Position numbers and translations under genes: made by a program. DNA of 64,000 nucleotides from Mycobacterium mantenii (GTDB taxonomy: Bacteria > Actinomycetota > Actinomycetes > Mycobacteriales > Mycobacteriaceae), in assembly GCF_010731775.1 (NCBI RefSeq), contig NZ_AP022590.1:1798001-1862000 (forward strand), read 5' to 3'. The notes under the pieces were generated by a model. That model was not told the DNA's origin, made no database searches, and saw only the letters and a program-made list of their open reading frames with translations. Shown here in pieces: positions 12,504-30,376 of this stretch; position 1 is the stretch's first letter; each line of letters opens with the position of its first letter.

Positions 12504-12545
12504 AGCTAAACCCCAGCACGCCTGCGGCGCAAGCGAATCCCGCGC

Positions 12546-13884: not shown

Positions 13885-14177
13885 CGGGTGCTGCGCTTGC
13901 CCGAGCGTGTCAGCGCGCCTGCGGGCAGGCGGTGCCCGATGGCCGCGCGCACCGTGTGCGCCGTGCTGCTCACCGGTTCTCCAAGGCCTGCGGAGGTGGT
14001 GCCTGCGGAGGTGGTGCCTGCGGAGGTGGTGCTCGATGGCACAGCATCGATAGCAGCCGGCGCGGGCCAGCCCGCCCAGGCAGCGAGGAGCATCAACCCT
14101 GCGAATCCGCGCCGGGGCGCTCCGCAGATAACCCCGCCGTGCTGCGGATCAGCATTGCCGGGTGCCCGCCCCGACAC
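13881..14177 (-). CDS. Possible small exported protein with TTSAG repeats
   Basis: A leftward frame coupled by an ATGA overlap to the XRE gene. GTG 14177 would give 98 residues, ATG 14093 would give 71. The latter starts MLLAAWAGWPAPAA, which could be a signal peptide or membrane anchor, followed by a threefold TTSAG repeat. The coupling is the main support; I do not recognise the protein and the start is unsettled. Confidence 0.35.
   Translation of the reverse strand: MSGRAPGNADPQHGGVICGAPRRGFAGLMLLAAWAGWPAPAAIDAVPSSTTSAGTTSAGTTSAGLGEPVSSTAHTVRAAIGHRLPAGALTRSGKRSTR
13989..14033. repeat. Three tandem 15-bp units
   Basis: TGCGGAGGTGGTGCC repeated three times (last unit ends GCT). The period is a multiple of three, so copy-number change would keep the leftward frame (TTSAG units) open. 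Confidence 0.85.
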
Positions 14178-14198
14178 CTGCCCGACGGTGAATGCGGT

Positions 14199-14229
14199 GG
14201 CTCCCGGGCCATGACGGCAACCGGGAGCC
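14199..14229. terminator. Perfect 9-bp stem hairpin
   Basis: GGCTCCCGG (14199-14207) and CCGGGAGCC (14221-14229) with a 13-base loop. It lies just upstream of the leftward small gene and downstream of nothing rightward, so it could be a terminator for leftward readthrough or a leader structure. Confidence 0.45.
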
Positions 14230-14521
14230 GCCGCGGGTGAATGGCCTAAATTACGCGCTGCGACGCGTTGTGCAGCGATAGGACGCGCGTCCCAGCGTGC
14301 ACCGATGGCGACGTGAAGCGATGCCCGACCGCCCCCGACCCCTGACTGCCCCACCATTACCGCCAGCTCAGCTGTAGCGCTACGCAGGCCGGGAGGGTGA
14401 ACCGCGGCCCCATCGTTCCCGATCATTACCGTGGGTGATCTATGCGAGCCAACATAGCTTTCATATAGCATTGGTGTTAGGTTGAGGCAAGAGCGGAGTA
14501 TCGACCGAAAGGGAGCGCCCA

Positions 14522-14892
14522 TTGCCCAACGACCAGCGGCCACGTCCAGGGCGCGGGGTGTACGCGATCTCGGTCGCCGCCGAGCTCACCGGTCTGGATC
14601 CGCAGACCCTGCGTCTCTACGAGCGGCGCGGGTTGCTCACCCCGGCACGGACCGGCGGGGCACCCGCCGCTACAGCGATGACGACGTGGTGCGCCTGCAG
14701 CGCATCAGTGCCCTGGTCGCCGGTGGCGTCAACATCGCCGGAATCGCCCAGATCCTGGCGTTGCAAGACCTCAACGGTGAACTCGAGTCCGACCTCAGCC
14801 ACCTCAGGTCCGAAAACGCCCGCCTGCGCCACACCGGCCCGGGCAATGAACACCTGGTGGCGACTCGAGGAAGGGGAGCCCGTCAGCGATGA
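14522..14892 (+). pseudogene. hspR: hspR-like MerR-family heat-shock repressor, frameshifted
   Basis: The first frame from TTG 14522 gives [20 protein letters not shown] and [13 protein letters not shown], the HspR winged-helix start. After a G-rich stretch near 14655-14665 the matching sequence continues in another frame as [20 protein letters not shown], then [14 protein letters not shown] and a coiled-coil tail with GPGNEH, ending at 14892. One missing base restores a full-length HspR. HspR represses dnaK and hsp20-type genes through HAIR operators. Either this island lost its repressor, or the single-base gap is a sequencing error in a homopolymer. AAGGGAG precedes the start. Confidence 0.75.
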
Positions 14893-15020
14893 GGATCAAC
14901 GTCGAAAACTGTCAACTGCCCGACGATGTGCCCATCGGCGACGCCGTCGAACAGCAGCAGCCCGTCGACGCCGATACCGAGGACGGCCTCGATCGTGACC
15001 ACCTCGCCGACCCCCTGTAG
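14889..15020 (+). CDS. Small acidic ORF coupled to hspR, 43 aa
   Basis: ATG overlaps the restored hspR stop (ATGA). The product starts [20 protein letters not shown] and is rich in Asp and Glu. It has no recognised domain. It could be the tail end of a decayed gene or a genuine small protein; the start overlap is the only positive sign. Confidence 0.3.
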
Positions 15021-15245
15021 CGTGATGCCAACCCCATCGACGTCAGCGATCAAGCCATCATCGTTGCCTGGCCCGACGACGACCGCGACGCCGGCACCAC
15101 TGGCTAGCCTGCGGCTAGCCCCGTGTCGGGGGGAACTGGATGAAATCTCTGTCTCCGCTAGTCGGGGCGCCGATGGGATGGGCGACGTTGCCGAGCAGGT
15201 TAGCGTGGACGCTGGCGAGCTTGCGGATTACCGCTGGACAGGCAG

Positions 15246-15414
15246 GACTTCCACCGGCAAAGCCTGGTGGATAAGCCGCCGGCGATGCTGTGGCTCTGGG
15301 CCCCCTGGTGCCCGATGTGCCAAAAGCGAAGCGCCCGTGGTCGGTCAAGTTACCGTTTCCCACCCGGCCGTGAACCGGTGCGATCGCATTGCGAAGATCC
15401 GACTCGATGCCTGA
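15246..15414 (+). pseudogene. Thioredoxin/DsbE (MPT53-like) remnant
   Basis: One frame encodes SLVDKPPAMLWLWAPWCPMC, including the redox motif WCPMC and the preceding beta-strand typical of secreted mycobacterial MPT53/DsbF-like proteins. After a shift near 15323 another frame gives SEAPVVGQVTVSHPAVN, the next helix and strand, and then stops at 15414. N- and C-terminal parts of the domain are absent. It is a fragment of a thiol oxidoreductase gene, here between hspR and the MFS gene. Confidence 0.6.
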
Positions 15415-15425
15415 GTATTCAGGGG

Positions 15426-16682
15426 ATGGCCAGCCAAGCCACGTCGATGCTCACGGTGCCGATCCGGGATCGCGCCGCGCTGCAGGCGGTCAATTTTTTC
15501 ATGGCGGACATGGAAGCCGGCATGGGCCCGTTCCTGGGTGTCTTGCTCGCGAGCCGCGGCTGGACCACCGGGGCGATTGGCACCGTTATCACCTTGGGTG
15601 CGATTGTCGGCATGTGCACGGTGGCGCCCGCGGGGGCGCTGGTTGATGCCACCACCCGCAAACGCGCCTGTGTGATCGTAGTCGGTCTAGCGGCCGTGGC
15701 GGCTTCGGCGGTGATTTTGACGTCGCGGCAGTTTTGGGTGGTCGCCGCCGCGCAGTCTGTTATGTGCGTTTCCGGGGCGATGATCGCCCCGGCGGTGATT
15801 GGCATCACACTGGGCCTGGTGGGCCAGGCCGGGTTTATCAGCCAAAACGGTCGCAATCAGGCGTACAACCACGCCGGCAACATGGCCGGCGCCGCGATTG
15901 GAGGTCTGCTGGGCTGGGTGTTCGGATACGCCGGAGTGTTCTGGCTTGCCGCAGCCTTTGCGGTGGTCACCGTCCTCGCGGTGTTGAGAATCCCCGCCGG
16001 TCGCATCAACCATCATGTCGCGCGCGGCGAGATCTTGGCCGGCGAGCAGCCCCCGGTCAAACGACTACGGGTGTTGGTAAAGTCCCGGCCGCTGTTGGCG
16101 CTGGCCGCCGCCGTGATGCTGTTTTGGCTGGGTAATGCGGCGATGCTGCCGCTCTACGGGCTAGCCGTTGTCGCCACCCACGCCAACGCGTTCACCACCG
16201 TGGCCAGCACCGTCGTGGTGGCACAGGCCGTGATGATCCCCGCATCCCTGGCGGCCATGAGGATTGTGCAAACTCATGGCTACTGGCTAGCCATTCTGAT
16301 CGCGTTCAGCGCCTTACCCATCCGCGCGCTCGTCGCCGCCGGAGTCATCACGACCTGGGGAGTGATACCGGTGCAAATCCTCGACGGCGTCGGGGCGGGC
16401 ATGTTGTCCGTAGCGGTGCCCGGGCTGGTGGCCCGCATCCTCGACGGCACCGGCCACATCAACGTCGGCCAAGGCGCGATCATGGCCGCCCAAGGACTTG
16501 GGGGAGCTCTCAGCCCGGTGCTCGGCGGGTTCACCGCCCAAATATTTGGTTTTTCAGCGGCTTTCGTGATGCTTGGCGGATTGTCGATGGGATCGCTGGC
16601 CATCTGGCTCGGGTTCGCGCCCATGCTGCGTCGCACCGGCAACCACATCTCACTGGCCTCTGCCCCCGTCGAGGCGACGTGA
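15426..16682 (+). CDS. MFS transporter of the heat-stress island
   Basis: A 418-residue major facilitator with about 12 hydrophobic segments. The A-loop between TM2 and TM3 reads GALVDATTRKRAC, a relaxed form of the GxLaDrxGrk signature. The N-terminus has a conserved ALQAVNFFMADMEAGMGPFL, typical of a subfamily found in actinobacterial and proteobacterial stress islands. It presumably exports or imports a small solute; the substrate is unknown. ATG 15426 is chosen because conserved sequence begins shortly after it, although the ribosome site (AGGGG, directly adjacent) is poor. Met 15450 is an alternative. A second, broken copy of the same gene lies at 21627-23640. Confidence 0.8.
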   Translation: MASQATSMLTVPIRDRAALQAVNFFMADMEAGMGPFLGVLLASRGWTTGAIGTVITLGAIVGMCTVAPAGALVDATTRKRACVIVVGLAAVAASAVILTSRQFWVVAAAQSVMCVSGAMIAPAVIGITLGLVGQAGFISQNGRNQAYNHAGNMAGAAIGGLLGWVFGYAGVFWLAAAFAVVTVLAVLRIPAGRINHHVARGEILAGEQPPVKRLRVLVKSRPLLALAAAVMLFWLGNAAMLPLYGLAVVATHANAFTTVASTVVVAQAVMIPASLAAMRIVQTHGYWLAILIAFSALPIRALVAAGVITTWGVIPVQILDGVGAGMLSVAVPGLVARILDGTGHINVGQGAIMAAQGLGGALSPVLGGFTAQIFGFSAAFVMLGGLSMGSLAIWLGFAPMLRRTGNHISLASAPVEAT

Positions 16683-17098
16683 GCGAGGGATCCAACCCGT
16701 CACGGGGAAGGTACGTGCCCGGCGATATGGTCCGGGGGCCCCATGGGGCTCGCGGGCACTGCCATGGAGGTGACACCCAGTGTGCGGTGGAGGGGAAGCC
16801 GAGAAAGCCTTCCGGGACAACACCGTTTCCCGCCGCGTCACATCCCTAATCCCGACCAGTTCTCATCCACCATCCCATCCGGTCCCGTGTCGGGGCGGTG
16901 AAAGCTGGGCTGCGGGGCGCTGCGATGGAGTTCCGCTCTGGCACACCGGTCGTTGCCCGTATCCGGTGCAGGGCCGCGCGCCGGCGGGCCTGGCGGCGTC
17001 TGGCAGCGGGCCGGTGAGAGCGCTAAAGTTGTTGGCGCACAGTAATTTTGCTGCCCGCCAGGGTGGCGGGCACCGAGTGTGACAGGAGGTGGATTGCT
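16683..17098. other. 416-bp intergenic region upstream of hsp20
   Basis: No gene seen. It contains a G/C palindromic patch (GGGGCCCCATGGGGC near 16735) and, near 17017-17050, an A+T-richer segment that probably carries the hsp20 promoter. I looked for CIRCE and HAIR operators here; GAGCGCTAA at about 17018 resembles half a CIRCE but its partner is missing. Confidence 0.4.
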
Positions 17099-17560
17099 GT
17101 GTTGCGTTTCGATCCGTTCACTGATTTCGACGCTCTGGTGCGTGACGTGCTGGCCGGGCCGGTCGGGTCGAGCCGCGGTCCTCGGTTCATGCCGATGGAC
17201 TTGTGCAAGATCGACGACCACTATGTGCTGACCGCCGATTTGCCCGGGGTCGATCCGGGGTCGATCGACGTCAGCGTGGACAACGGCACCCTGACGGTGT
17301 CGGCGCGGCGCACCGCCCGCTCCGAGGAATCGGTGCAGTGGCTGACCGCCGAACGGTTCTTCGGCGAATACCGTCGGCATCTGTGGCTGGGAGAGGGCAT
17401 CGACGCCTCAGTGATCAGCGCGACGTACGAAAACGGGGTGCTCACCGTCAGCATCCCGCTGGCCGAAGGGGCCAAGCCGCGCCGCATCGAGGTCGCCCAC
17501 GGCGCGGCACCACACGTCATCGAAGGCCAAGTCGTGCAATCACCCACAGAAACCGCCTAG
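17099..17560 (+). CDS. Small heat-shock protein Hsp20 (alpha-crystallin family)
   Basis: A 153-residue small heat-shock protein. The short N-terminal arm (VLRFDPFTDFDALV) precedes an alpha-crystallin domain from about residue 38 to 130. The domain includes LTADLPGVDPGSIDVSV, a FFGEYRRHL strand and the signature YENGVLTVSIP, followed by an IPLAEGAKPRRIEV tail. It would hold unfolding proteins as an ATP-independent oligomeric chaperone. GTG 17099 has GGAGGT 8 bases upstream. It is transcribed toward, and ends 150 bp from, the convergent debranching-enzyme operon. The set hspR, MFS, hsp20 and sugar enzymes looks like a transferable heat-tolerance island. Confidence 0.92.
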   Translation: MLRFDPFTDFDALVRDVLAGPVGSSRGPRFMPMDLCKIDDHYVLTADLPGVDPGSIDVSVDNGTLTVSARRTARSEESVQWLTAERFFGEYRRHLWLGEGIDASVISATYENGVLTVSIPLAEGAKPRRIEVAHGAAPHVIEGQVVQSPTETA

Positions 17561-17711
17561 GACGCTGGTTGCGGCACCCGCGGCGGGCAATACCCGCTGC
17601 GGGTCTGTGTGCGCATGTCGGGGGCGGCGTTGTGGCAGCAGCGAATCCACACCATCAGATGATTACGGATCAGGCGGTGCCGCGCACGGAGCGAGCGCGG
17701 CGATACCTGGG

Positions 17712-19841
17712 TCATGCTGAGGAGCTGAGCAGCTGCCAGTCCTCGGGCATCCGATGTATTTTGACCGTGTCACCCTCGGCTTCCAGATCGATGCTGGCGT
17801 CTCCCAGGCGCAGGTCGGTCAGCACGACGCGGCCCCACGCCTCGGGCAGATGCGGTGTGACCGCTATCTGGCGCGCCGGCACGTGCGGTTCGAGTCCCAG
17901 CAACGATCTGAGCAGCAGGACCGGCGCGGCGCTGGACCAGGCTTGCGGTGAGCACGAGGTGGGGTACGGGATCGGTGAACCGAACTGCGACCGGGGAAAT
18001 CCGCAGTACAGCTCAGGCAGCCGGGTGCCGAACGCGTCGGCGGCATCCAGCAGGCCGTTAGCCAACCGGTGGGCTAGGACGTGGGCTTCGCGCACATGCG
18101 GGTAGCGCAGCAGCCCGGCCACCGCGATCGCGGTGTCGTGCGGCCAGATGGCGCCGTTGTGGTAGCTCATCGGGTTGTAAGCGCCCATCGTGGTGGCCAG
18201 GGTGCGCAGCCCGAACCCGCTATCCATCTCACCGGATGCCAGGTGTTTGACCAGCGTTGCGGCGTGCTCATCGGTGGCGATACCGGTCCATAGGCAGTGC
18301 GCGACGTTGCTGGTCAACGCATCGACGGGCTGTTTGCGCCGGTCCAGGGCCACCGCGTACCAGCCGCGCTGCGGCAACCAGAACGCCTCGAGGAACCGCG
18401 TGCGCAACGCCTGGGCGCGCTCGCGCAGCTGCCCGGCTCCCGTGGGGTCGTCGAATGCCTCGGCCAGCTCGGCGCGCGCCAGCAGGGCCGCGTAGTGATA
18501 GCCCTGCACCTCGCACAGCGCGATCGGCGGCTCGGCGGTGCGGCCGGTGGCGTCGTTGATGCCATCGAAGCTGTCTTTCCAGCCCTGGTTGATCAGGCCA
18601 CGGTCGGTGGCGCGCTGGTACTCGATAAACCCGTCACCATCACGATCGCCGTAACGCTGGGCCCACGACAGCGCCGCATCAGCGGCCGGCAGCAGCGAGC
18701 GTACCACTGACGGGTCGGCGCCCCACCGCCACGCTTCGGCCAACAGCATCACAAACAGCACGGTGGCGTCGACCGACCCGTAGTAGACGGCGCCACCCAG
18801 CACGTCGGTGCTGGCCGGGCCGCGGCGGATCTCATGCATGATCCGCCCCGGCTCTTCCTCGGTGATCAGGTCCACCCGCCGGCCCTGCACCGCGGCAAGC
18901 TGCTGCAAGGTGCCCACCGACAATCCGACGTCCAGCGGCAACGCCATCCACGCGGTCAGCAGGCTGTCGCGGCCGAACAACGTCATGAACCAGGGCGCTC
19001 CGGCGGCCACGAACGAACGACCCTGACCGCTCTCGTCATGCATCAGCAGCGCGCCCAGGTCGCTTTCGGTTTGCCGCAGCACCTCGGTGAGCACGCGATG
19101 ACCCGCCTCCACGGTGGTCGCGGTGTGCCGCCAGGCCTCCAGTTTGCGCGCCGGGGCACTGGACTGCAGGTTCTCGCCGCGACGGAATCGGGTTCGCACG
19201 GTGTTGTTGGCCCACGTCGGCTCGGCGAGGATCTCGGTGTGCCAGCGCTGGCCGGCAGCCACCACCACCCGCCAGGTCAGCCACCCCGGTGCCACCACCG
19301 GCTCCCCCGAGGCGGTCACCCGCAGGCCGCGGACCCGATCGCCCCACTCCAACAGCACCAGTTCACCGTCGATGGCGGCCACCTCGGCGCCACCGCGCGC
19401 CGCGCGGCCCTCCTTGACGGCGAATAGGTCCGCGAAATCGGCGTCGACGTGCAACTGCAACACCACCACGGTGGGTTCGTGGTCGAGGTTTTCCACCGAG
19501 ATGGTCTCGCGCAACCCGTCGGCCACCAGCCGCTCCCGAACCAGCAGAAGTGTGCTGTCGGCCTGGCCGCCGCGCGGGGCGCGGCGCAACACGAATTGCG
19601 CGGCAAACCCCGCCGACGGCTGCACCGACAGCGGTTCGGGCGGCTGGCCGTCGACCCGAAGCTCCCACCGAGACAACACCCGCGCGTCGCGGAAGAACAA
19701 CCCATGCGCGCGGCCCGCGACCACGTCGCCGAGACAATCGGACAGGCAAAACGTCGACCCCTCCACCAGGGTGACGGTGTCAGCGCCGGCCCCCAGACGC
19801 GCCGGCGCACTGGTGTTGAACGCCGCGGGCGCGTCACTCAT
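17712..19841 (-). CDS. Amylo-alpha-1,6-glucosidase/glycogen-debranching-like enzyme
   Basis: A 709-residue protein. The N-terminal beta-rich domain (about 20-270) matches the bacterial debranching N-terminal family, with FFRDARVLSRWELRVDG. An (alpha/alpha)6-barrel catalytic domain follows, with FMTLFGRDSLLTAWMALPLD, a GLINQGWKDSFDGI loop with conserved Asp/Glu, and MSYHNGAIWPHDTA near the C-terminus. Such enzymes hydrolyse alpha-1,6 or related glucosidic bonds in storage or compatible-solute glucans. ATG 19841 overlaps the stop of the glycosyltransferase gene (ATGA), so the two are coupled under the CIRCE-bearing promoter. True substrate is uncertain. Confidence 0.85.
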   Translation of the reverse strand: MSDAPAAFNTSAPARLGAGADTVTLVEGSTFCLSDCLGDVVAGRAHGLFFRDARVLSRWELRVDGQPPEPLSVQPSAGFAAQFVLRRAPRGGQADSTLLLVRERLVADGLRETISVENLDHEPTVVVLQLHVDADFADLFAVKEGRAARGGAEVAAIDGELVLLEWGDRVRGLRVTASGEPVVAPGWLTWRVVVAAGQRWHTEILAEPTWANNTVRTRFRRGENLQSSAPARKLEAWRHTATTVEAGHRVLTEVLRQTESDLGALLMHDESGQGRSFVAAGAPWFMTLFGRDSLLTAWMALPLDVGLSVGTLQQLAAVQGRRVDLITEEEPGRIMHEIRRGPASTDVLGGAVYYGSVDATVLFVMLLAEAWRWGADPSVVRSLLPAADAALSWAQRYGDRDGDGFIEYQRATDRGLINQGWKDSFDGINDATGRTAEPPIALCEVQGYHYAALLARAELAEAFDDPTGAGQLRERAQALRTRFLEAFWLPQRGWYAVALDRRKQPVDALTSNVAHCLWTGIATDEHAATLVKHLASGEMDSGFGLRTLATTMGAYNPMSYHNGAIWPHDTAIAVAGLLRYPHVREAHVLAHRLANGLLDAADAFGTRLPELYCGFPRSQFGSPIPYPTSCSPQAWSSAAPVLLLRSLLGLEPHVPARQIAVTPHLPEAWGRVVLTDLRLGDASIDLEAEGDTVKIHRMPEDWQLLSSSA

Positions 19842-21016
19842 GCGGTGACCATCTCATCCGTCGACTCACGCCGCCGGGATATCGGGTTGCTCGCCGCCCG
19901 AGTAATCTCTTCGCCGTACAGCAGCCGGCGATAGATCCGCTCGTAGCCCGAACCCAACTGCGCCACATCGAAGTTCGCCGCGACATGCCGACGACACGCG
20001 TGCGGGTCAAGACTGCCCGCCCGCTCGATCGCGGCCGGCAGCTCAGCCGGCTGCTCACAAATCACACCGGTGACTCCATCGATGAGAACCTCAGCCACCG
20101 CTCCGCCGCGCAACGCCACCACTGGCGTGCCACAGGCCATCGCCTCGATCATCACGATCCCAAACGGTTCCTCCCACTGAACCGGAAACAGTAAACACCG
20201 CGCACCGGCGAGCAGCTTGCGCTTGCTGACCGCGTCAGCCTCACCGAACACGTGATCGCTGCCGGTCAGCAGCGGACGCACCCGCTGATCGAAGTAGGCC
20301 TTCTCCGACGCTTCCGAGCACTTGCCCGCCAACACCAGCGGCACGCCCGCCTCGTGGGCGGCCTGCACGGCCAGGTGCGCACCCTTATACGGGGCGAAAC
20401 GGCCCAAGAACAACGCATAGTCGCCCTTGTCGGTTTCAAACGGCCACTGCTCGACCTCCAGCGCGTTATGCACGCGCCCAACCCAATTCAGGTCCGGGGC
20501 CAATTCGCGCTGGCGATCGCTGATCGCCACCAACGCCACGTCTGCACCCAATCCGCGATAGTACGGGTACAGATCGGCATCAATGGGGCCGTGCACCGTC
20601 ACCACCGTCGTCAAGCCCAGCCCCCGGTAGACGGGCACGTTGAGCACACCGGCAAAGGTGTGATCGTGCACGATATCGACGCCCTGATCCGCCGCGAGGT
20701 CCGCGACGGCGTTACGAACCTTCAATGCATGCATGACCTCCGGATAGGGCTCACCAAGCCGATCCGGAATCGTGCGATCCCACAACGACACAAACCGCGC
20801 CGCCGTGCCCGACTCACCAGCCCCCAACACCGTCACCTCATGCCCACGAGCAACCAAAGCATCCACAAGATCAGCAAGCACCGCCTCCACACCCCCATAG
20901 CCCTTCGGCGGAACGTCGAAATACGGCGGCGCCACCTGCACAATCCGCAACCGCCGGGCCCGACCATCGGGCCGAGAATGCGTCGACACACCCTGCACGA
21001 AATCGATGCTGCGCAC
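19838..21016 (-). CDS. GT4-type glycosyltransferase under CIRCE control
   Basis: A 392-residue retaining glycosyltransferase of GT-B fold. It has an N-terminal RIVQVAPPYFDVPPKGYGGV motif with Gly-Gly acceptor loop, then VDIVHDHTF and VVTVHGPI. The C-terminal donor domain has FLGRFAPYKGAHLA and the E-x7-E motif EEPFGIVMIEAMACG. GTG 21016 is preferred over the upstream frame because AGGAGG lies 8 bases upstream. It probably transfers glucose or another hexose from a nucleotide sugar onto a small acceptor or glucan, which the coupled debranching-like enzyme could remodel. A CIRCE operator sits 34 bases upstream of the start, so HrcA should repress it and heat should induce it. Confidence 0.87.
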   Translation of the reverse strand: MRSIDFVQGVSTHSRPDGRARRLRIVQVAPPYFDVPPKGYGGVEAVLADLVDALVARGHEVTVLGAGESGTAARFVSLWDRTIPDRLGEPYPEVMHALKVRNAVADLAADQGVDIVHDHTFAGVLNVPVYRGLGLTTVVTVHGPIDADLYPYYRGLGADVALVAISDRQRELAPDLNWVGRVHNALEVEQWPFETDKGDYALFLGRFAPYKGAHLAVQAAHEAGVPLVLAGKCSEASEKAYFDQRVRPLLTGSDHVFGEADAVSKRKLLAGARCLLFPVQWEEPFGIVMIEAMACGTPVVALRGGAVAEVLIDGVTGVICEQPAELPAAIERAGSLDPHACRRHVAANFDVAQLGSGYERIYRRLLYGEEITRAASNPISRRRESTDEMVTA

Positions 21017-21049
21017 TCGGATTTCCTCCTTTCCCAACATCCACAAGCG

Positions 21050-21076
21050 TTAGCACTTCGATTCCTTGAGTGCTAA
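21050..21076 (-). promoter_or_regulatory. CIRCE element (HrcA operator)
   Basis: TTAGCACTT (21050-21058), nine-base spacer, GAGTGCTAA (21068-21076). This equals the CIRCE consensus TTAGCACTC-N9-GAGTGCTAA except for one base in the left half. It lies just upstream of the glycosyltransferase ribosome site on the leftward strand, the normal position for HrcA repression. In mycobacteria CIRCE is known at groE operons; here it would control sugar enzymes. Confidence 0.93.
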
Positions 21077-21452
21077 TTATGGCCCGCTGTGCACGCGCCC
21101 GCCACACACCCCAACCGTCACCGACACCCCGCCCGCCACACACACGACGACGGCCGCAACGAGGCCCGTTGCTGAGTGCCTAAAAGCCGAGCGCGATCAC
21201 CACCGATCGCGAGACGAATCAGCGTTAGCCAGCACCACTCACGAGCTGGCGCCGCGGCCAAACCGGCTCTTCGTGATCGAGCGTGCACCGGTGGTTAGCG
21301 GAACGCTGGGGAAGGGTGTCGTGTCGGTGAGCTGAGGCGGGCCCTCGGTGGGTGACGATGCGGGTTCCTACACCAAGCTCCACCAACACCACCGAGGGGA
21401 CCCGTTGCGCGAGGCCAATGCCTGCCCGCGCTCTGTTGTTGCCGACACGATC

Positions 21453-21626
21453 ATGCGCACGATCGAGTTGGGGGTGACGATCACCGACGCCGCCGTCGAC
21501 GACACCCAGACCACGATCTTCTGCACCCCCGTGGTGAGGAATCCGCGTTGTCCGGACTGTGGGCGCGACGGCAGGTATCGCGACACCGTGACGCGGCCAT
21601 TGACCGACCTGCCTGTGGCCGGCCGC
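21453..21626 (+). pseudogene. ISL3-family transposase, N-terminal fragment
   Basis: From ATG 21453 the product starts MRTIELGVTITDAAVDD and contains RCPDCGRDGRYRDTVTRPLT, the N-terminal zinc-binding part of ISL3 transposases. The match stops abruptly after LPVAG at about 21626, where the remnant of the second MFS gene begins on the other strand. Catalytic domains are missing, so this is an end fragment. The preceding 100 bases contain GGGTGACGATGCGGG and GGGGACCC words that could be its terminal repeat. Confidence 0.6.
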
Positions 21627-21808
21627 CGCCAACCAAAACACCGCGGGGTACCCGAACTGCCAGCCCAGCAGCCCCGACAGCGCAGCACCGGCCATATTGC
21701 CAGCGTGATTCCAGGCCTGGTCGCGACCGTTCTGGCCGGTGAACCCGGCCTGGCCCACCACACCAAGGGTGATGCCAATCACTGTCGGGGCGAGGTCGCG
21801 TCCGAAAG

Positions 21809-23268
21809 CCGGTGTAAAAGGGGGCCGGGCGTAGGTTCTGCTTCGAGACCGCCAAGTCATCGAAGTGAAAGGACCTACGCCCGTGCCTGCACGAGTATCA
21901 CCGACCGATCGTGTTCGCGCCAAGATCGACGAGCTGTTCGCCTCCGATCGTGAGCTGCCCGACATCTTGGAGGAGGTGGCCCGCCTCGGCGCGCAGTTGC
22001 TGATGCAGGCCGCGCTGGAGGCCGAGGTGACCGAGTTCCTGGGCCGGGAGCGCTGCCAGCGCGCCGCCGCGGCACCGGATGCCCAGCCCGGGTCACGCAA
22101 CGGCTATCAGCCGGTGACGGTCAAGACCACCGCCGGCCCGGTCACTTTGGAGCGGCCTAAGCTGCGTGACACGACCACCGCGTTCGCTTCGCGATTGTTC
22201 GGCAAGCACGTCACCAAGACCAACGCACTGGAGTCGCTGGTGATCGCCTCATTCGTGCGGGGGTTGTCGGTGCGCGATGTGGAGGCCACCCTGGCCGACG
22301 CGCTCGGTGATCAGGCCGCGATCTCGAAATCAACGGTGTCGAGGTATGCCAGGCGATCAAGACCGAGTACGACAGCTGGGCGGCGCGGAGGCTCGACGAG
22401 GTGGTGCTGGACTACCTGTTCTTGGATGCGTCGTTCTTCCGGATACATCCTGGCTCGCCGGCCGAGCCGGTCTTGGCCGGCTGGGGCATCACCACCGACG
22501 GCAAACCCGTCTTCGTCGGCCTGGCCCCTGGTGCCGGCGAGTCGACCGACGCCTGGGCCGATTTCTTGACCGACCTGCGCGACAGGGGCTTGGGGTGCCC
22601 GCTGCTGGTCATCTCCGACGGCGCGGCCGGCCTGATTGCCGCGATCGAGCAGGTCTTGCCGGCCGCGCTGCGGCAACGCTGCCTCATCCACCGGCTACGC
22701 AATATTCTGGTCAAGATCCCCGCCGGGATGCAGGCCGAGATCCGCGACGGCTACTGGGCCTGCTTTGACACCGCCGAGGTCAACACCGGGCCCGGTCCGC
22801 GCCTGGTCGAGCTCGTCGACGCCCGGCTGACCGCGTTCGCCGAGCGTTACGGCACCACGTATCCGGCGGCGATGAAGATCGTGCTGACCGATCGCGAAGG
22901 CCTGACCGCCTATCTGAGGTTCCCGGCCGAACACCATCACCGCATCCGCCACTCGAACTTCATCGAACGCACCTTCGGTGAAACACGGCGCCGCGCAAAG
23001 GTAATCGGCCGCTTCCCCGGAGAAACCAGCTGCATCAGCATCGCCTGGGCTGTCCTCGACCGCGCCTCCCGCGGCTGGCGCGGCCTCGCCATGACCCCCG
23101 CGGGGCTGCGTCAACTGCAAGACCTACGCCGCAGCCTGCTGCAACCACCCCGCCAACTGCGACCCCAGCACAACCAGGACTGCCCAAACAACACCACCGA
23201 AACCGCCAGCGCCACGGCGTCACATCAACCACCGAAGCCAGAACCTTCATCGGCCTCATTTACACCGG
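21809..23268 (+). mobile_element. IS256-family insertion sequence, about 1.46 kb
   Basis: Ends are imperfect inverted repeats: CCGGTGTAAAAGGGGGCCG at 21809-21827 and the complement of CGGCCTCATTTACACCGG at 23251-23268. The element splits the MFS remnant. I see no clean 8-bp target duplication: the flanks are TCCGAAAG and ATTCCGGA. It carries one rightward transposase gene, frameshifted. Confidence 0.8.
21883..23268 (+). pseudogene. IS256-family transposase, frameshifted
   Basis: GTG 21883 begins MPARVSPTDRVRAKIDELFA. Mutator-type features are RNGYQPVTVKTTAGPVTLERP and ALESLVIASFVRGLSVRDVE. At about 22343 the frame breaks; one missing base would restore VCQAIKTEYDSWAARRLDEV and VVLDYLFLDASFF. 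The second frame supplies the DDE residues in FLDASFF, VISDGAAGL and ERTFGETRRR. There is no stop before the right terminal repeat; the frame runs on to 23729 in antisense to the MFS remnant. The element should not transpose by itself. Confidence 0.85.
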
Positions 23269-23653
23269 ATTCCGGACGCCACCATCGTCACCCCAGCAAT
23301 ACACATGGCGGCCTGCGCAGCACCGATGACCCAAAACTGTCGCGCCGAGAGGATCAGCGCAGAGGCCGTCACCGTGCACGCGCCGACGGCGACGACACAG
23401 GCCCGCTTGCGCGTGGTCGCATCAACCAGCGCTCCCGCCGGTGCGACCGCGACCATGCCAACAATGGCACCCAGGGTGACCACCATACCGGTAGCGGCGG
23501 TGCCCCAACCACGACTCTGCAACACCACACCAAAAACGGGCCCATGCCGGCCGACATGTCGGCCATAAAGAAGTTGACGGCAAGTAAGGCTGTCCGATCA
23601 CATCTCGACCCAATCGGCCTGGTCATTGGCCCCACTGCACCCCACCCGATAAT

Positions 23654-24190
23654 TTACTCGACCGCCAAGGGCCCGCGGCGTTCGATTAGTGTCACTGCTG
23701 CATCAATCAGATACTTCGCGATAACATGAACAGCGGAGCGGGCAGGCAGCACCTTGCACACGAAGGCAGGGTTGCTTGCTGTCGCGCGGCGGATCACTTC
23801 TCGGCAGCCGGGGGCGAATTCAGCCCGCTGCTCAATAAACCCGAAGGCATACGGGCTTATTGAGAAGGACGTTCGCTCATACCGGATGCAGTGCCCATCG
23901 GAGCTAATGGCGTAACCGCAGACCTGATCGGCGTCGGCGGTCAAGGGCCAAAATGGTGCCGCCACGTCGAAATGGCACACGATCTCAAAGTGAGAGCGCC
24001 CTGCGGGCGGCGCGTCGCGATCCGCGAATCGTGAACTACAAGTCGTGGCGATGTCATAGGGGCGCACCCGGTATTGGCGCATCAAATAAACAAAAGCCTC
24101 TGTTGCCGCGCGAGCCGCCGCGGGCAGATCTTCGGCCCAGGCCGTCGCTGCCGACGCCAGTTCACCGTTACTGCGGTGTTGGGACTCCAC
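23654..24190 (-). CDS. Hypothetical protein, 178 aa
   Basis: I do not recognise it. From GTG 24190 the product is VESQHRSNGELASAATAWAE onwards, with SSRFADRDAPPAGRSHFEIV and DADQVCGYAISSDGHCIRYE strands suggesting an alpha/beta domain, and a C-terminal VIAKYLIDAAVTLIERRG helix. The frame stays open upstream, but that part is the third fragment of the PAS-ANTAR pseudogene, so the long version is not real. Start uncertain. It lies between debris on both sides. Confidence 0.4.
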   Translation of the reverse strand: MESQHRSNGELASAATAWAEDLPAAARAATEAFVYLMRQYRVRPYDIATTCSSRFADRDAPPAGRSHFEIVCHFDVAAPFWPLTADADQVCGYAISSDGHCIRYERTSFSISPYAFGFIEQRAEFAPGCREVIRRATASNPAFVCKVLPARSAVHVIAKYLIDAAVTLIERRGPLAVE

Positions 24191-24330
24191 CTCCCGATCA
24201 GGGATAACGATCGATGGCTGCAGACATATATTTCTGATAACACAAGCGGAAAACTTCCACAAGCTGTAAGGGCAGGTTTGCGCTGAAAGCACGGCCTGGG
24301 CCGGTAGGCGGTCGTCTCCCGAGAACCTGG

Positions 24331-24963
24331 CTACGTCGAACGGCCCTGCAGGCGTCGGACGGGCCGCAGGTGGTGCAAGTCGATGCTGAACAGTGCGTGA
24401 TCGACTCGGGCCAGTCGATCGGGCAGGGTCACGCCATTGTCGAAATTTGATGTTGGTCGCCTGGGAACAGCCACCAAGATATCGAAGGCGCGCGGCCCGA
24501 GCGCCGTAGGCGACGATGAACACCTGTGTGGGCCTGATTAATCTGCCCCCGCGCAACCGCCGTCTCCGAGATCGTCGTGGTGATGTCCTCCCGAATCGCC
24601 CGTGGTGACATCCAGGTAAAACCCCGAAGTGCCGATGACCGAACCCGACTCGTCGACCATGCTGTCACCCACCACGACCACAAAGCGGGTATGCCCGGCC
24701 GTGTCAATGATGCGGTGCCGACTGTTAAAGGGCTCCCCCTGCAGCACCCGATCCAAAACAGCCGTGACTTGCTGGCGATCGTCGGGATGTTTGTGCAGCA
24801 GGAGCAGCTCGGTGGTCGGTGTCACCGTTCTCGGCTCATAGCCATGCATCCGGGCAACCGCCTTTGACCACTCCCAGCGCTGGCCATCAAGGAAAAACCG
24901 GAACCGACCGACCCGCTGCGCCGTGCCAGCCACCACAGCGGCGTCATCGAAGTCGTCAACCAC
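24331..24963 (-). pseudogene. PAS-ANTAR regulator with two frameshifts
   Basis: GTG 24963 has GGAGG 7 bases upstream. Frame 1 gives a PAS domain (VGRFRFFLDGQRWEWSKAVA, LLLHKHPDDRQQV, GTSGFYLDVTT). Frame 2 continues as AIREDITTTISETAVARGQI, the PAS-ANTAR linker. A further shift gives VFIVAYGARAARL and SQATNIKFRQW, and then the original frame type resumes with LPDRLARVDHALFSIDLHHL and ends at TAG 24331. Joined, these make the common mycobacterial PAS-ANTAR antiterminator. At least two indels inactivate it. Confidence 0.75.
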
Positions 24964-25290
24964 TTCACAACCTCCTGCCCGCACCGCAGAAGCCTCTGTC
25001 TGGGCTGGCGTGTGGGCGCGGCGAAGCCTCCGGGGTCACGTAGCACATCGGAATCGTCACCATCTTTGTCGAGCTCCCGACATAGTTTGCACTTTTCGAC
25101 ACTGGCTTTGCGCTCCGAGTGTGATCTGGCTGGTCGCGATAATCTGTTCCTAGCAACAGAGATAATTCATGTCAAATGCATGATTCTTCGTAGCTCACCG
25201 AGCCGACATGTCTATGTCCGTAAACGGATGTGGCCCCACCTCCTGATCTTTTCGACCCCGAACCGACCCGACGTGACCCGTCAGACCGCC

Positions 25291-25329
25291 TGATGCTGAG
25301 CAGTGATTACTGATGCTGAGCAATGATTA
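25291..25329. repeat. Two tandem 19-bp units, 20-bp period
   Basis: TGATGCTGAGCAGTGATTA at 25291-25309 and TGATGCTGAGCAATGATTA at 25311-25329 differ at one position. The two-turn spacing would place both copies on the same DNA face, as in an operator or integrase-arm site. Confidence 0.8.
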
Positions 25330-25564
25330 GAGGTCTGTAGATGAGCCTCGGCGAGGCGGAACGGGCGGACCTTCCCGAGGACGATCTGAAGTCCGTTTGT
25401 CTGATCAAGGACCGGCGTCGGCGCCCTGATTCGGGAAGCTACGCCCATGCTCACGGTTGTGGCAGCGGTGCGCCCCCTCTGCAACAGCACGAGAGATCGC
25501 TACGCTTGCATCCACTGCACGCCCGATGACTCACGTCGCAAACTCGACTGGTCAGGTCAGACTC

Positions 25565-25615
25565 AGTTGAAAGGTCTCGACCCGTGTCGCAGATGGCCAA
25601 GTCCCCCTCGGACAC
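25565..25615 (+). repeat. Attachment-site-like repeat att2
   Basis: A 51-bp segment nearly repeated at 30325-30376, starting AGTTGAAAGGTCTCGACCC and ending in CAAGTCCCCCTCGGACAC. The end matches the tRNA-Leu-type acceptor in att1; the left part is not tRNA and would be the element arm. It looks like a right attachment junction. Confidence 0.6.
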
Positions 25616-25957
25616 AATCTTGTTAGCTGGCAGTGTCCGTAAATCAGCTCCGAACTGCATCGGAGCGGATTTTTCGTGGTTGCTTACGTCCACTCGACAC
25701 CGACACGGACCCCCACAACTAACGCCGGCGGCGAAAGCACCGCCGCGAAGAACTCACCACTGCGACCACCGAGGTCGCAGGCGATCAGACCTGCCGATTA
25801 GTAACGGATTCAAGAGGACCGTGAATTGCTTCGACATGTCTCCGGACTCACCGCGATTCAATGCGCCGCGTCCTGGTGACACTGGCGGACGTAAAGGTTC
25901 AGCCGGACTGTGGTGGATAGTCTGGCGACCAAGTACCTGACAACGACGGGGAGCAGA

Positions 25958-28735
25958 ATGGTCGCGTTGGGCGGCGGTGGTATCGCAGCCTTCGGTCTCA
26001 GGTACCAGTACCTCGTAACGGCCGAATACGTCTTGGGCTTCCTTCGAAATAACCTCGCTCTGATACCGCACACGACGCTGGTGATCGAGCCGCTGCATAG
26101 GAAGGACGATGGCAAAGACGACGATGTAGTCGACTTCGCGGTCGAGATCGACGACGAGCCATCGCACAACGTGCAGGTGAAGTCGTCCTCTGAGCCCGAT
26201 GATCACCCACTGCAACCGGCTGCTGCGGGAGAAGTCTTCGACCGACTTGTGATCCACCCCGCTGAAGAGAGAATTCTGCTCACGAACAAGCCCCTCTCGC
26301 CCGTCCTGGCCGACGCGGCGATAGAGCAAACGACCTATGCGAGCCGGACGGAGTACACCTGGCCGTCGGGCCCGCAGGCACCTGTTGGAGCTGCGGAACC
26401 GCGCATCATCTTCGACTCGCGAAGCACGGCTGAGTTGTTCGACTCAATCACGGAGTTGATCAAAGGTTTCCGCGTGGAGCGTGGACGCTCGCCAGGCACC
26501 GTCACCTGCCAGCTGCTGGTCTCGATCCTTGTCGACTTCATCTTCAGCGCTGCGGCGGGGACAGAACCAAGCAGAATTTCCGCCCTCGATCTCCTCGACA
26601 AGCTCGTCATGCCGGACGCAGCGATCGCGCAAGTCGCCGGCGGATTTGATTGGGGCTTACCGATTACCAACATCCCCAACTATCTGTCGACCGTTCCCAG
26701 GCTGGGCTACCTCAATGGGATTCAAAGCCATCTCGACCTTACGAAGGAAGTGTCGACTCCTTCTCGCGTGGTGTTAGCGGGCCGGACAGGAAACGGGAAA
26801 ACCGTTCTTGCATCGGACTATTGCCATATTGAAGCCATCTCGTACGCGTTCATATGTTGGGTCGACTGTCGCGACGTTGACTTCATCGAACCGCAGATCC
26901 GCAATCTGATTGAGCAGTTGAACGAGACCGTCCCAGGTGGCACGACAATCGGGCCGGTGTTCGCCGGCATCCTCGGCCGCCACCCGGGCCCTTGGTTGCT
27001 CATCTTCGATGGACTCCAAAACCGCACAGATATCGAGGAATACATCCCGTCGCGAGGTTACGGCTCGATTATCGTCGCATCCAATAACAGTCTCAACTGG
27101 TGGCCAACTGCTCCGGTTATCGAAGTGGCTGAGTTCACCGAAGATGAAGCCATCGATTGCTTTGCAGCGTATGCGGATATCGGGCCCGCAGATCTCGACC
27201 GTGCCCGCGATTCGATCCGCGAGATTGTTGTCCGTTTGGGTCTGGTGCCCTTGGCTGTGAGCATGTCTGCGATCTACTTCAAGAACACTGAGGGTCAACT
27301 CGACGAGTTGGCTTTGCAGTACTTCAGCGATTTGGAAGCGCTCGCCGACGATGCATCGATACCGCCCGGCTTCCCGTCGACGGCGTTTGCAGCTATCCAG
27401 CATGCCGCCCGCAGCTTGGCAAAAGGCACGCGAACCGGGCAGGTGTACGGCAGGTCGGCGCGGGCCGTCGTGGAGATCGGCTGTCTGCTTGCACCAGAAC
27501 TGTTGCCACTCAACTTCGTTCTGCAGGCGACAGACGAATCAGTCTACGTCGATCTTGCGAACCTCCCGGTACCAACCGAGGTAGATCAAGCTGTTCGTCG
27601 GGGAGTTCTGTCTGCGTTGCGCACGCAGTCCATCGCTCAGCGAGTTGTGAACGACGGGGAAGGTAACCGCACACCCGTCAGTGAGACGGTTGCGGTCCAT
27701 CCCCTCGTACACGACATTCTCCGCCGGTCATACTTGGCCGCTGTACCCCACGGCTATCTAGAGTCCCAGTGCACCGTATTCATGTACTTCCTTGTCGGGT
27801 GGCTGGGAAAGTTGCGCGACCAAGGCGAATTCTTCGCAGTCGAACAGCTTCGCGTCCACGCCGATGATCTTCTGGCGCTCATCGCGGAGAACGAGCCGTT
27901 ATCATCGATGTCGAGGCAGAGTCTCCGTGTATTCACCTACGCAAAAGCACTTCTGCGCGCCGAGCTCAGCACGTGCGCAGCGAGTCGTGGCAGGCTGCAG
28001 CAGGCACTTGAACTCGGTCATGCCGCAACACAGGACCTGGCGCCGTGGCTGCATGAGCAACATGCGCGACTCATCCGAGCCAAGATTCTCAGCAACATGA
28101 TCGGCGATCTATCCATCGGCGAGGCAGCCCCGGAGATGGTCTCCACACTCGTGAACCCACTCCTGGTCGCGGTTCGCGAAGCTACAGCCAGCGCGGACGA
28201 GTCGAAACGCAGGTTCGGCTACGTAATCGCCGCCGAGACCCTCAGCTACCTCAATCGCACCGATCTGCACCGCAATTCGCCGCTATTAGCCGGAGCGCGG
28301 ACCGAACTCGCCGGCATCGCGGACAGTGACCCCTCTGCGAATCCTGGCGGTGCGATACAGAACAATCTCGCGAATCGTCTCTACGAGGCGGGGCAGTTTG
28401 AGGAACTCCTTCGTCACGTACTCCTATGGCGGGAAGCCAATGAGTCAATCGAAAACGGCGTGCTCCTCGACGCGTTGATGATCGTGTGCCAACTCCATAC
28501 TGACGATATCGACAATGCGCTAGCCGCGACTGACGCTCTCGTCTCCACCAGCGTGCACGCCAACTACGTACTTCTATCCATGCACGAAGCCTTGAAGAAA
28601 GTTGGCCGAGAACTCCACCGGGTGATCCCTACGCTGCCCGCACATCGCGATCGTCTCCAATCCGCGCTGGAGCGCGTACTTGCGCGATACAACCAACTCA
28701 GCGATTTGTCGGGAGGAGCTCCTCCCGACAGCTAG
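25958..28735 (+). CDS. STAND NTPase with N-terminal PD-(D/E)XK (Cap4/DUF4297-like) nuclease domain, probable antiphage protein
   Basis: A 925-residue three-part protein. N-terminal domain (about 1-190): GGGGIAAFGLRYQYL followed by E44, D59 and Q73-V-K75, the acidic/QxK layout of Cap4/DUF4297-type nucleases used as effectors in CBASS and Avs defence. Central NTPase of NB-ARC/STAND type: Walker A G275-RTGNGKT-282, Walker B LLIFD ending at D351, and a GLVPLAV motif. C-terminal half: helical repeats with no recognised motif, the likely sensor. It would stay silent until the sensor meets a phage protein, then oligomerise and cut DNA. ATG 25958 has GGGGAG just upstream; GTG 25910 is the alternative. 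It uses more A/T-ending codons than its neighbours, indicating transfer. Confidence 0.8.
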   Translation: MVALGGGGIAAFGLRYQYLVTAEYVLGFLRNNLALIPHTTLVIEPLHRKDDGKDDDVVDFAVEIDDEPSHNVQVKSSSEPDDHPLQPAAAGEVFDRLVIHPAEERILLTNKPLSPVLADAAIEQTTYASRTEYTWPSGPQAPVGAAEPRIIFDSRSTAELFDSITELIKGFRVERGRSPGTVTCQLLVSILVDFIFSAAAGTEPSRISALDLLDKLVMPDAAIAQVAGGFDWGLPITNIPNYLSTVPRLGYLNGIQSHLDLTKEVSTPSRVVLAGRTGNGKTVLASDYCHIEAISYAFICWVDCRDVDFIEPQIRNLIEQLNETVPGGTTIGPVFAGILGRHPGPWLLIFDGLQNRTDIEEYIPSRGYGSIIVASNNSLNWWPTAPVIEVAEFTEDEAIDCFAAYADIGPADLDRARDSIREIVVRLGLVPLAVSMSAIYFKNTEGQLDELALQYFSDLEALADDASIPPGFPSTAFAAIQHAARSLAKGTRTGQVYGRSARAVVEIGCLLAPELLPLNFVLQATDESVYVDLANLPVPTEVDQAVRRGVLSALRTQSIAQRVVNDGEGNRTPVSETVAVHPLVHDILRRSYLAAVPHGYLESQCTVFMYFLVGWLGKLRDQGEFFAVEQLRVHADDLLALIAENEPLSSMSRQSLRVFTYAKALLRAELSTCAASRGRLQQALELGHAATQDLAPWLHEQHARLIRAKILSNMIGDLSIGEAAPEMVSTLVNPLLVAVREATASADESKRRFGYVIAAETLSYLNRTDLHRNSPLLAGARTELAGIADSDPSANPGGAIQNNLANRLYEAGQFEELLRHVLLWREANESIENGVLLDALMIVCQLHTDDIDNALAATDALVSTSVHANYVLLSMHEALKKVGRELHRVIPTLPAHRDRLQSALERVLARYNQLSDLSGGAPPDS

Positions 28736-28767
28736 GACACTCGAAGCACTGATAACACCCAGGATTG

Positions 28768-29526
28768 TCAGCCGCCGCTCAGGACTCGCAGTGCTGCGTG
28801 CCCTCGTCGTGAGTTTGTCCCCGTAGCTATCCACGATCGATGGCCAAGATCACTGAGCATCGTCCACAGCGCGGCGATACGTTTGCGGTCGCTGCCAATC
28901 ATCCGAGCGCGATCACCAACCGGATCGGTCACTGCGCAGGCCAGCACTGCCGCGTCATCGAGATGGCGACCGCGATCACGCGAGTCATCCAGGTAGGCAG
29001 CGCCTTTGAGCACCAACGCGCCCAGCACGTCAGGAATGCTGAGCGTGACGGCGCCCGCGCCGGCAGTCACCTCACAGTTGACCGTCTTGCGCAGCGCCGA
29101 AGTCCCACCCGGGACGGCAAACACCTTCCGCTGCAACACCTTCGGATGAAGCTTGAGCGGAAGGCGATCGGCCACCATGACATCGACCGTCTCGCCGTCG
29201 CCAGCACCACGGACGAAACGGTGTACCGGCCCGCTGCCGACGGGTTCACGCAGGCGATATCCGAGGCGTTCCAAGTCACGCCGGACACCACCAAATGTCG
29301 CCGCTCCGGTCTCGATGTGCAGGATCATGTCCACATCACGCGTGGCGCGGGTCAGCGGCAACCCCGCCCGCACCGCATGCAGCTGCACCATCAATCCACC
29401 CACCAGCGTCCACTGCGTGCAGGGGACGGCGTGGGCGATCTCGACGAGCTGCGGCCACGGCGACGGCCATCCGCCGGCCGGGGCATCCACCTGCCAGAGC
29501 GGTCGATTCTCGGCCTGCGGACTCAT
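28768..29526 (-). CDS. Nucleotidyltransferase toxin, AbiEii/MenT-like
   Basis: A 252-residue DNA-polymerase-beta-fold nucleotidyltransferase. It has the GG motif G43-G44 in WTLVGGLMVQLHA and the catalytic pair D64-V-D66 in RATRDVDMILHIE. Downstream are KLHPKVLQRK and LKGAAYLDDSRDRGRHLDDA, the helical elements of AbiEii/MenT proteins. MenT toxins block translation by adding nucleotides to the tRNA acceptor stem; AbiEii proteins mediate phage abortive infection. ATG 29526 overlaps the stop of the HTH antitoxin gene (ATGA), the normal antitoxin-first order. It converges with the STAND gene, leaving 32 bases between stops. Confidence 0.8.
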   Translation of the reverse strand: MSPQAENRPLWQVDAPAGGWPSPWPQLVEIAHAVPCTQWTLVGGLMVQLHAVRAGLPLTRATRDVDMILHIETGAATFGGVRRDLERLGYRLREPVGSGPVHRFVRGAGDGETVDVMVADRLPLKLHPKVLQRKVFAVPGGTSALRKTVNCEVTAGAGAVTLSIPDVLGALVLKGAAYLDDSRDRGRHLDDAAVLACAVTDPVGDRARMIGSDRKRIAALWTMLSDLGHRSWIATGTNSRRGHAALRVLSGG

Positions 29527-30227
29527 CGGTCCCGTCGTCCCGACACGCGCCGGCCGGTGTCACCGGAACGAAACCGGTCGAGCAGATCCTCCAGGACACC
29601 GATCCCCGCAGCAGACTCACGGGTGTCCAGCGACTCGGCCAAGTCGACCGCCACCGCGGCCGTCACGATGTGGTCGACCGCGTAGCCGGCATCCTCAGGC
29701 ACCACCCGCACGATCACGTCACCCCCCACGTCATCGATAAGCCCGGCCGCGCCGACCACGCCGGCCAAATCGCGAGCACGAACATAACCCTCGACTCGCC
29801 CATCGACAGCCGTGAGATCGAACAGCTGCGACATCGCCTCATCGTGCAATGCACTGACTCCCGAGGCCAGCAGCCCGGTATCGGTGCCCCACCCACGCAT
29901 CCGAAGCACCGACGCGCGGCGACGCGTCATCCAACACAACTGCGACGCGCCGCCAGCCCGCAGCCGATGCCGCAGCCGCGACAACGCCGAGGCGTCCAGC
30001 CAATCCACACGCTCACCGGAGAGCAACGCGAGTGCCGCCCACGCCGTGGCCGGCGTCCATGGGCGCCCATTGTGGCGGACCTGGTTTGCCAGCCGATGCA
30101 CCGACGCACCATCCAACAACAACGCACCGCCAACCGTCCGCGTCACCGTCAACTCCCCCGCACGGGCAAGCCGCGCGACCTGCCGCGCCGAAACCCCCAG
30201 GATCTCCGCACCTGCCACAGCCGTCAT
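29523..30227 (-). CDS. HTH antitoxin of the MenAT/AbiE-like pair
   Basis: A 234-residue protein with an N-terminal excisionase-type helix-turn-helix (GAEILGVSARQVARLARAGE, then a LLLDGASVHRLANQV wing). A helical and beta C-terminal part follows with GRPWTPATAWAALALLSGE and GYVRARDLAGVVGAAGLIDD. This resembles the antitoxins paired with AbiEii/MenT toxins, which repress their own promoter and restrain the toxin. ATG 30227 is chosen on length and position; ATG 30263 and GTG 30236 are alternatives. A TATATAT stretch at 30238-30245 could be a -10 box giving a near-leaderless mRNA. Confidence 0.72.
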   Translation of the reverse strand: MTAVAGAEILGVSARQVARLARAGELTVTRTVGGALLLDGASVHRLANQVRHNGRPWTPATAWAALALLSGERVDWLDASALSRLRHRLRAGGASQLCWMTRRRASVLRMRGWGTDTGLLASGVSALHDEAMSQLFDLTAVDGRVEGYVRARDLAGVVGAAGLIDDVGGDVIVRVVPEDAGYAVDHIVTAAVAVDLAESLDTRESAAGIGVLEDLLDRFRSGDTGRRVSGRRDR

Positions 30228-30324
30228 CTCACTCACACATATATAGTCGACCAGAGGACGCATTTACGCAATATATGCAGCTCAAACTCATGACGATGGC
30301 CATCGGCCGTTCCGTCAACGACCG

Positions 30325-30376
30325 AGTTGGAAGGTCTCAACTCGTGTCGCAGGTGGACAACTCCCCCCTCGGACAC
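30325..30376 (+). repeat. Attachment-site-like repeat att3, right boundary of the accessory region
   Basis: Starts AGTTGGAAGGTCTCAACTC and ends TCCCCCCTCGGACAC. About 85% identical by eye to att2 and sharing the tRNA-Leu-like acceptor end with att1. Core mycobacterial synteny begins about 260 bp to the right. The remaining non-coding DNA from 30377 to 30634 shows no gene. Confidence 0.6.

Follow-up and report, generated by a model that had tools for sequence, protein, structure and literature searches.

A Cap4-type nuclease joined to an ATPase of the STAND class (signal transduction ATPases with numerous domains) is a known design in bacterial defence, represented by Avs3. PMC12931631 reports that the nucleases of Avs1-4 cut phage and host DNA, and PMC11291478 and PMC12198126 describe how, in Avs3 and HerA-DUF4297, pairing of the N-terminal domains accompanies activation of the nuclease. 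AP-ATPases with C-terminal tetratricopeptide repeats (TPRs) have been described as well, and their N-terminal parts include TIR (PMC7159879). Here, we consider a single gene that combines these elements in a 64,000-nucleotide stretch of Mycobacterium mantenii (contig NZ_AP022590.1, positions 1,798,001 to 1,862,000, forward strand), hereafter the window. The gene is carried by an actinomycete integrative and conjugative element (AICE). Its sequence, its predicted structure and the analogy to described systems make it probable that the product is a defence protein resembling NLRs (nucleotide-binding leucine-rich-repeat receptors), encoded by one gene as mobile cargo and acting as a ligand-triggered abortive-infection nuclease.

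A compact actinobacterial nuclease of this kind would offer a tractable route to the question of which mycobacteriophage proteins are sensed. It might account in part for the phage resistance of non-tuberculous mycobacteria, and it would show an AICE moving a defence gene between species almost unchanged. The gene and its parts are as follows, with residues counted from the ATG and conservation given for an alignment of 70 proteins described below.

25958..28735, + strand: single gene, intact open reading frame (ORF) for a Cap4-type nuclease / NB-ARC / TPR-like protein of 925 aa
25958..26647, + strand: Cap4-type PD-(D/E)XK nuclease domain, residues 1-230 (predicted structure)
26087..26089, + strand: E44, putative active-site residue (alignment)
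26132..26134, + strand: D59, putative active-site residue (alignment)
26174..26182, + strand: Q73-V74-K75, putative QxK active-site motif (alignment)
26675..27742, + strand: NB-ARC/AP-ATPase STAND switch, about residues 240-595 (predicted structure, profile matches)
26780..26803, + strand: Walker A GRTGNGKT, residues 275-282 (G275, T277, G278, G280 and K281 in 70/70)
26996..27010, + strand: Walker B LLIFD, residues 347-351 (D351 in 70/70)
27698..27712, + strand: HPLVH, residues 581-585, candidate MHD counterpart (H581 in 70/70, H585 in 68/70)
27755..28732, + strand: TPR-like helical array, residues 600-925, presumed sensor (predicted structure)

With the Avs proteins this protein shares an N-terminal Cap4-type nuclease effector and, in its middle, a STAND NTPase with both Walker motifs. 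Where Avs proteins have a C-terminal sensor for phage terminase or portal, its model shows TPR-like helices. An earlier note on this DNA, made from the letters alone, had called it a candidate new, Avs-like antiviral protein. The likeness holds for the design, but the switch is nearest to those of FxSxx and AfsR, the chain has less than half the length of Avs3 (925 residues against 2028 in 8dgc), and the C-terminal array comprises about 325 residues. PADLOC, whose library presumably contains Avs models, matched none of them, either in the window protein (E <= 1) or in 30 members of the family (E <= 0.1). A probable defence gene thus survives from the proposal, but the words 'candidate new' go too far, the fusion being that of Avs3. 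What is different is the switch lineage and the compact sensor placed on a known nuclease-STAND design. By design the protein likely works like Avs1-3; whether it is an Avs by descent is a separate matter.

Other relatives of the nuclease differ in how it is controlled. LmuA of the Lamassu system works with LmuB, a partner resembling SMC (structural maintenance of chromosomes) proteins, and is a separate protein, whereas the nuclease here is fused to its own switch and has no fixed partner gene. Membership in Lamassu was considered and rejected: the LmuA-type nuclease domain is there, but no LmuB neighbour was seen, and Pfam gave no SMC match in 24 ORFs of the island, the gene among them, which make up part of the island's ORFs. 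HerA-DUF4297 is activated by a separate HerA hexamer, in contrast to the fused NB-ARC domain of this protein. Cap4 of CBASS (cyclic-oligonucleotide-based antiphage signalling systems) carries a SAVED domain, to go by the titles of its PDB entries, where our protein has an NB-ARC and a TPR-like part; assignment to CBASS Cap4 was likewise dropped, as Pfam listed no SAVED match for the window protein or 30 members and residues 240-925 model as NB-ARC plus a helical array. The actinobacterial AP-ATPases FxSxx_TPR and AfsR have the NB-ARC/AP-ATPase switch in common with it and differ in their N-terminal parts, and the nuclease profile found no match in the NB-ARC-only relatives scanned. A place in the FxSxx system itself was rejected at 112.1 bits, below the curated cut-off of 300 of the model for its TPR protein (NF040586). 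No mycobacterial fusion of a Cap4-type nuclease to NB-ARC was described in the literature searched, from which most subscription papers were out of reach.

Nuclease, switch and reading frame

The predicted model of residues 1-230 reached a predicted template-modelling score (pTM) of 0.84, and its best matches among solved structures are LmuA, Avs3 (8dgc), Cap4 and Hachiman. This agrees with the Cap4-like PD-(D/E)XK fold that had been proposed for residues 1-190, and the motifs E44, D59, Q73-V74-K75, GRTGNGKT and LLIFD all lie where they had been placed. Conservation was assessed in 70 rows, consisting of the window protein and 69 of its 79 close relatives (P0002-P0080); P0002, which is 99% identical, and nine shorter proteins were excluded. 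D59, Q73 and K75 are each found in 69/70, the remaining row being a gap, while position 44 holds E in 65/70, D in 4/70 and a gap in one. Residues comparable to these in HerA-DUF4297 are D40/Q53/K55 (PMC11291478).

The conserved Walker residues and the NB-ARC fold of the model bear out the proposed STAND NTPase. Structure matches of the switch model are Apaf-1, CED-4 and the resistosome, and Pfam NB-ARC was matched in 20/30 family members with a best E of 8.1e-8; the alignments of 30 and 46 rows used besides that of 70 were our own selections. By sequence, the switch is closest to the FxSxx-COOH TPR protein (E 2.8e-32) and AfsR (E 0.003). Searching the PDB with the family profile returned four chains (AfsR, Roq1), whose alignments are confined to the switch; the window protein alone gave no match there. 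HPLVH at residues 581-585 is a candidate equivalent of the NB-ARC MHD motif. No DNA-binding domain was matched in the window protein at E <= 1 in Pfam or NCBIfam, where a fold unlisted is not thereby proven absent.

The open frame begins at GTG 25910 on the + strand and runs to 28735. We take ATG 25958 as the start because GGGGAG stands a few bases 5' of it and because the first residue of the homologues corresponds to it. A chance ORF was considered and rejected since 79 of 98 database matches are close relatives at E <= 1.2e-127, the active-site and Walker residues are conserved, and the predicted models yield nuclease and NB-ARC folds. The atypical codon usage that had been noticed is real: G+C at third codon positions is 0.68 in the gene against a mean of 0.868 (sd 0.040) in 12 host ORFs of our own choice from the same window. 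No convincing gene was picked in the roughly 1 kb 5' of the gene (window 24985-25957), which could contain its regulatory region.

Distribution and neighbourhoods of the family

The close relatives that carry names belong to Mycobacterium/Mycolicibacterium, Rhodococcus, Gordonia and Nocardia. Within 297 congeneric genomes (the window's own included) 21 gave a match: 12 full-length and uninterrupted, one full-length with one stop, and eight partial or domain-only. Three of the 12 are the copies on the near-identical elements of the window, M. vulneris and M. bohemicum. Genomes G230, G018, G189 and G064 contain fragments of the gene family (L018, L025, L028, L017, L019). Judged from these sequences, the gene has decayed repeatedly, which fits one that can be dispensed with. 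A fixed core regulator was rejected on the patchy distribution and the mobile carrier; the homologues are accessory and tied to mobile DNA, as the earlier note had expected.

Beyond the genus, a profile search covering 397 genomes of the order gave matches in 137, nearly all listed rows being the switch only; at six loci (L062-L067) the presence of both nuclease and switch was confirmed. In a sample of 396 genomes of the phylum (15 matched; two candidates per genome scored) no protein with nuclease and switch appeared besides the window's own. Since the genome searches scored only the best two or three candidates per genome, and such proteins do occur in other genera, these negatives are soft. 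A search started from distant relatives listed 50 proteins, which together with P0081 and P0082 form a wider actinobacterial set of 52. Of these, 41 carry the nuclease at E < 1e-5, and all 41 carry the switch. Named bearers are Amycolatopsis, Actinoplanes, Micromonospora, Dactylosporangium, Streptomyces and Nocardia. The putative active site is retained: position 44 is E in 26/41 and D in 11/41 (E or D in 37/41), D59 is found in 40/41 (one gap), Q73 in 40/41 and K75 in 39/41.

The C-terminal part behaves differently. The mycobacterial C-terminal profile matches 1/41 of the nuclease-switch proteins of the wider family; this part is the least conserved in all 1062 pairs at 30-40% identity and in 57% of 90 pairs at 80-97% identity. 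A kept nuclease and switch with an unmatched C-terminus is what sensor exchange would look like in sequence, the alternative being plain divergence of a helical repeat. Many long actinobacterial frames among L055-L090 consist of the NB-ARC part with other N-terminal parts, and a nuclease-only match lies within a 283-aa frame (G925:C1:1611951-1612487). By their sequences, these cases are domain shuffling around the nuclease and NB-ARC modules. We tentatively suggest a history that we hold possible, at somewhat short of even chances: a separate actinobacterial NLR lineage parallel to Avs, in which an AP-ATPase of AfsR/FxSxx stock gained a Cap4-type nuclease and then kept this nuclease-switch chassis while exchanging C-terminal sensors, spreading by AICEs and transposons, with each subfamily reading a different viral or plasmid signal.

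What surrounds the homologues was compared using ORFs selected by their G+C at codon positions, both in the window's island and in 14 homologue stretches. At most three loci have any one neighbour in common, so the gene appears to have no fixed partner. Among ten neighbour ORFs picked by us and scanned with Pfam, six are mobile or defence genes (two transposase-type ORFs flanking one homologue, TniQ, a phage-type integrase, ApeA and DndB) and four are neither (an amidohydrolase, a P450, a major facilitator superfamily (MFS) protein and one unmatched). At the locus of the phage-type integrase a tRNA-Arg lies on the opposite side of the gene.

In a larger set, made up of the 112 ORFs within 6 kb of the gene at 11 homologue loci, 45 PADLOC families were matched at E <= 1e-10, the first 25 of which include type IIG and type I restriction-modification (R-M), AbiEi/AbiEii, DpdF, BrxHI, DrmD and TniQ. 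The 127 control ORFs matched seven (two RT-Protease, three mads, a GlgB model and an oxidoreductase model). This contrast is smaller in proteins than in families, because a single protein may hit many models of AbiE or R-M. Pfam found rve 5, IstB 3, Phage_integrase 3, TniQ 2 and TniB 2 in the 112 ORFs, within the first 25 of 98 families, and all five are absent among the first 25 of 188 families of the controls. The neighbour set covers 11 of the 14 stretches, the fragments L044, L046 and L047 being excluded; L045 holds a partial copy only and L036 a copy with one stop. Controls are arbitrary places picked by us in ten of the same genomes and in G230. A tRNA is present in 5/14 homologue stretches (10-20 kb) against 1/11 control stretches (10-15 kb). 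We do not rely on this proximity because lengths are unequal, two stretches share one tRNA-Val site, one tRNA-Ala (89 nt) looks irregular, and full-length copies are present in only three of the five (L035, L038, L040), with fragments alone in the other two.

Proposed mode of action and its alternatives

How could such a protein act? An infection-specific ligand, probably a phage protein, would bind the C-terminal array and release the NB-ARC domain from its resting state. Protomers could then oligomerise through NB-ARC, and their N-terminal domains would pair into an active nuclease cutting double-stranded DNA of host and invader. The infected cell would die or stall before phage release, that is, by abortive infection, and the AICE would benefit by protecting the host population. 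These steps are proposed by analogy, given the N-terminal pairing in Avs3 and HerA-DUF4297 and the DNA cutting by Avs1-4.

The same machine might instead be aimed at competing plasmids and AICEs, excluding rivals that arrive by conjugation. The gene is AICE cargo at a tRNA-Leu site with stacked elements, a 434-kb plasmid of M. arabiense carries a distant relative (34% over 79% of the query), and no link to phage records was found: a search of these for homologues returned none, and of 21 pattern matches from two peptide patterns in viral contigs, 0 were confirmed. Nevertheless, both the window's genome and M. vulneris have elements stacked at this tRNA-Leu, so that same-site exclusion is not strict, while the best matches of the nuclease are anti-phage effectors and some homologues adjoin transposases, ApeA or DndB. 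On balance we consider this unlikely.

In sequence the switch comes closest to AfsR and the FxSxx-COOH TPR protein, which would fit a STAND regulator of transcription or development, its N-terminal part serving another role. Yet the FxSxx cut-off is missed (112 of 300 bits), DNA-binding domains went unmatched at the threshold given above, the model of the N-terminus is that of a nuclease whose active-site residues are conserved, and the gene has a patchy distribution and a mobile carrier, all of which makes such a regulator very improbable. Least credence goes to an addiction or stability module in which a restrained toxic nuclease kills cells that lose the AICE. The mobile carrier and an adjoining putative toxin-antitoxin (TA) pair speak for it, but no antitoxin partner is common to the homologue loci, and a 925-aa chain with switch and sensor array would be unusual for addiction. 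The ligand-triggered defence nuclease therefore remains the reading that we prefer.

The carrier element and its other genes

AICEs with serine recombinases in tRNA-Leu are known from mycobacteria, and eight such recombinases in different Mycobacterium species are described in PMC3218068. Compared with these AICEs, the element of the window is alike in serine recombinase, RepSA, FtsK and tRNA-Leu site; no essential difference was seen, and it is the cargo that is of interest. The integrative island suspected earlier is thus an AICE with all the expected parts, namely serine recombinase, RepSA, FtsK/SpoIIIE and site-specific integration with direct attachment (att) repeats.

4517..30376, strand not assigned: integrated pSAM2-like AICE, about 25.9 kb (15-bp att core at 4517-4531 and 30362-30376)
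4512..6158, - strand: large serine recombinase, integrase (Pfam Recombinase 2.1e-21, Resolvase 2.7e-9, zinc ribbon 2.5e-6)
6345..7850, - strand: RepSA replication initiator, pSAM2 type (Pfam RepSA 8.9e-129)
7847..9457, - strand: FtsK/SpoIIIE transfer protein (Pfam 2.4e-16)
28768..29526, - strand: AbiEii-like nucleotidyltransferase, putative TA toxin, a separate unit of 252 aa (homologue P0110 named AbiEii/AbiGii nucleotidyltransferase toxin)
29523..30263, - strand: helix-turn-helix (HTH) protein, putative antitoxin or AICE regulator (HTH_17 22.7 bits, Pfam cut-off 27)

The 15-bp att repeat belongs to the 3' end of tRNA-Leu(gag). Over 25,874 aligned columns, window 4504-30376 and M. vulneris DSM 45247 share 99.930% identity; the M. 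vulneris stretch could be aligned across the island and a further integrase end only. Window 5523-30376 is 99.976% identical to M. bohemicum DSM 44277 over 24,855 aligned columns; the M. bohemicum stretch starts inside the element and covers the window from 5523 rightwards, and the chromosome to the right of the element is just 79-90% identical to the window. The gene is uninterrupted in both copies. In M. vulneris an intact tRNA-Leu adjoins the left end of the element, and directly to the right of the island (L031-L033) stands another, related integrase end, with 79% identity to window 4513-5477; there are thus tandem elements at one tRNA-Leu in this species. In the window's genome an intact tRNA-Leu (G000:C1 1793038-1793124) lies about 9.4 kb left of the AICE. 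The 3' end of this tRNA recurs at the junction, which suggests that a second element or remnant is stacked there.

The nucleotidyltransferase and HTH genes adjoin the right att site. That they form a TA pair, as the earlier note had it, is plausible from the name given to the toxin homologue, but the HTH_17 match of the partner falls under the Pfam cut-off. The 252-aa nucleotidyltransferase matched nothing in Pfam, NCBIfam or PADLOC at E <= 1 and has 911 homologues at E <= 0.001, and hence appears to be a widespread unit of its own.

Further cargo in window 9960-21046 includes an HTH regulator, a NUDIX hydrolase, a sub-threshold ANTAR match, an MFS transporter, HSP20, a glycogen-debranching-like enzyme and a GT4 glycosyltransferase; stress and carbohydrate functions make an unusual combination here. 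A Mutator-family transposase lies within the island at window 22401-23729 (+). ORFs related to it occur in a G230 stretch together with short pieces of the gene family (90-91% identity), and this stretch may be a decayed relative of the AICE. Outside the island, a long series of minus-strand ORFs with a G+C of about 0.70 extends over window 37027-53010 (-).
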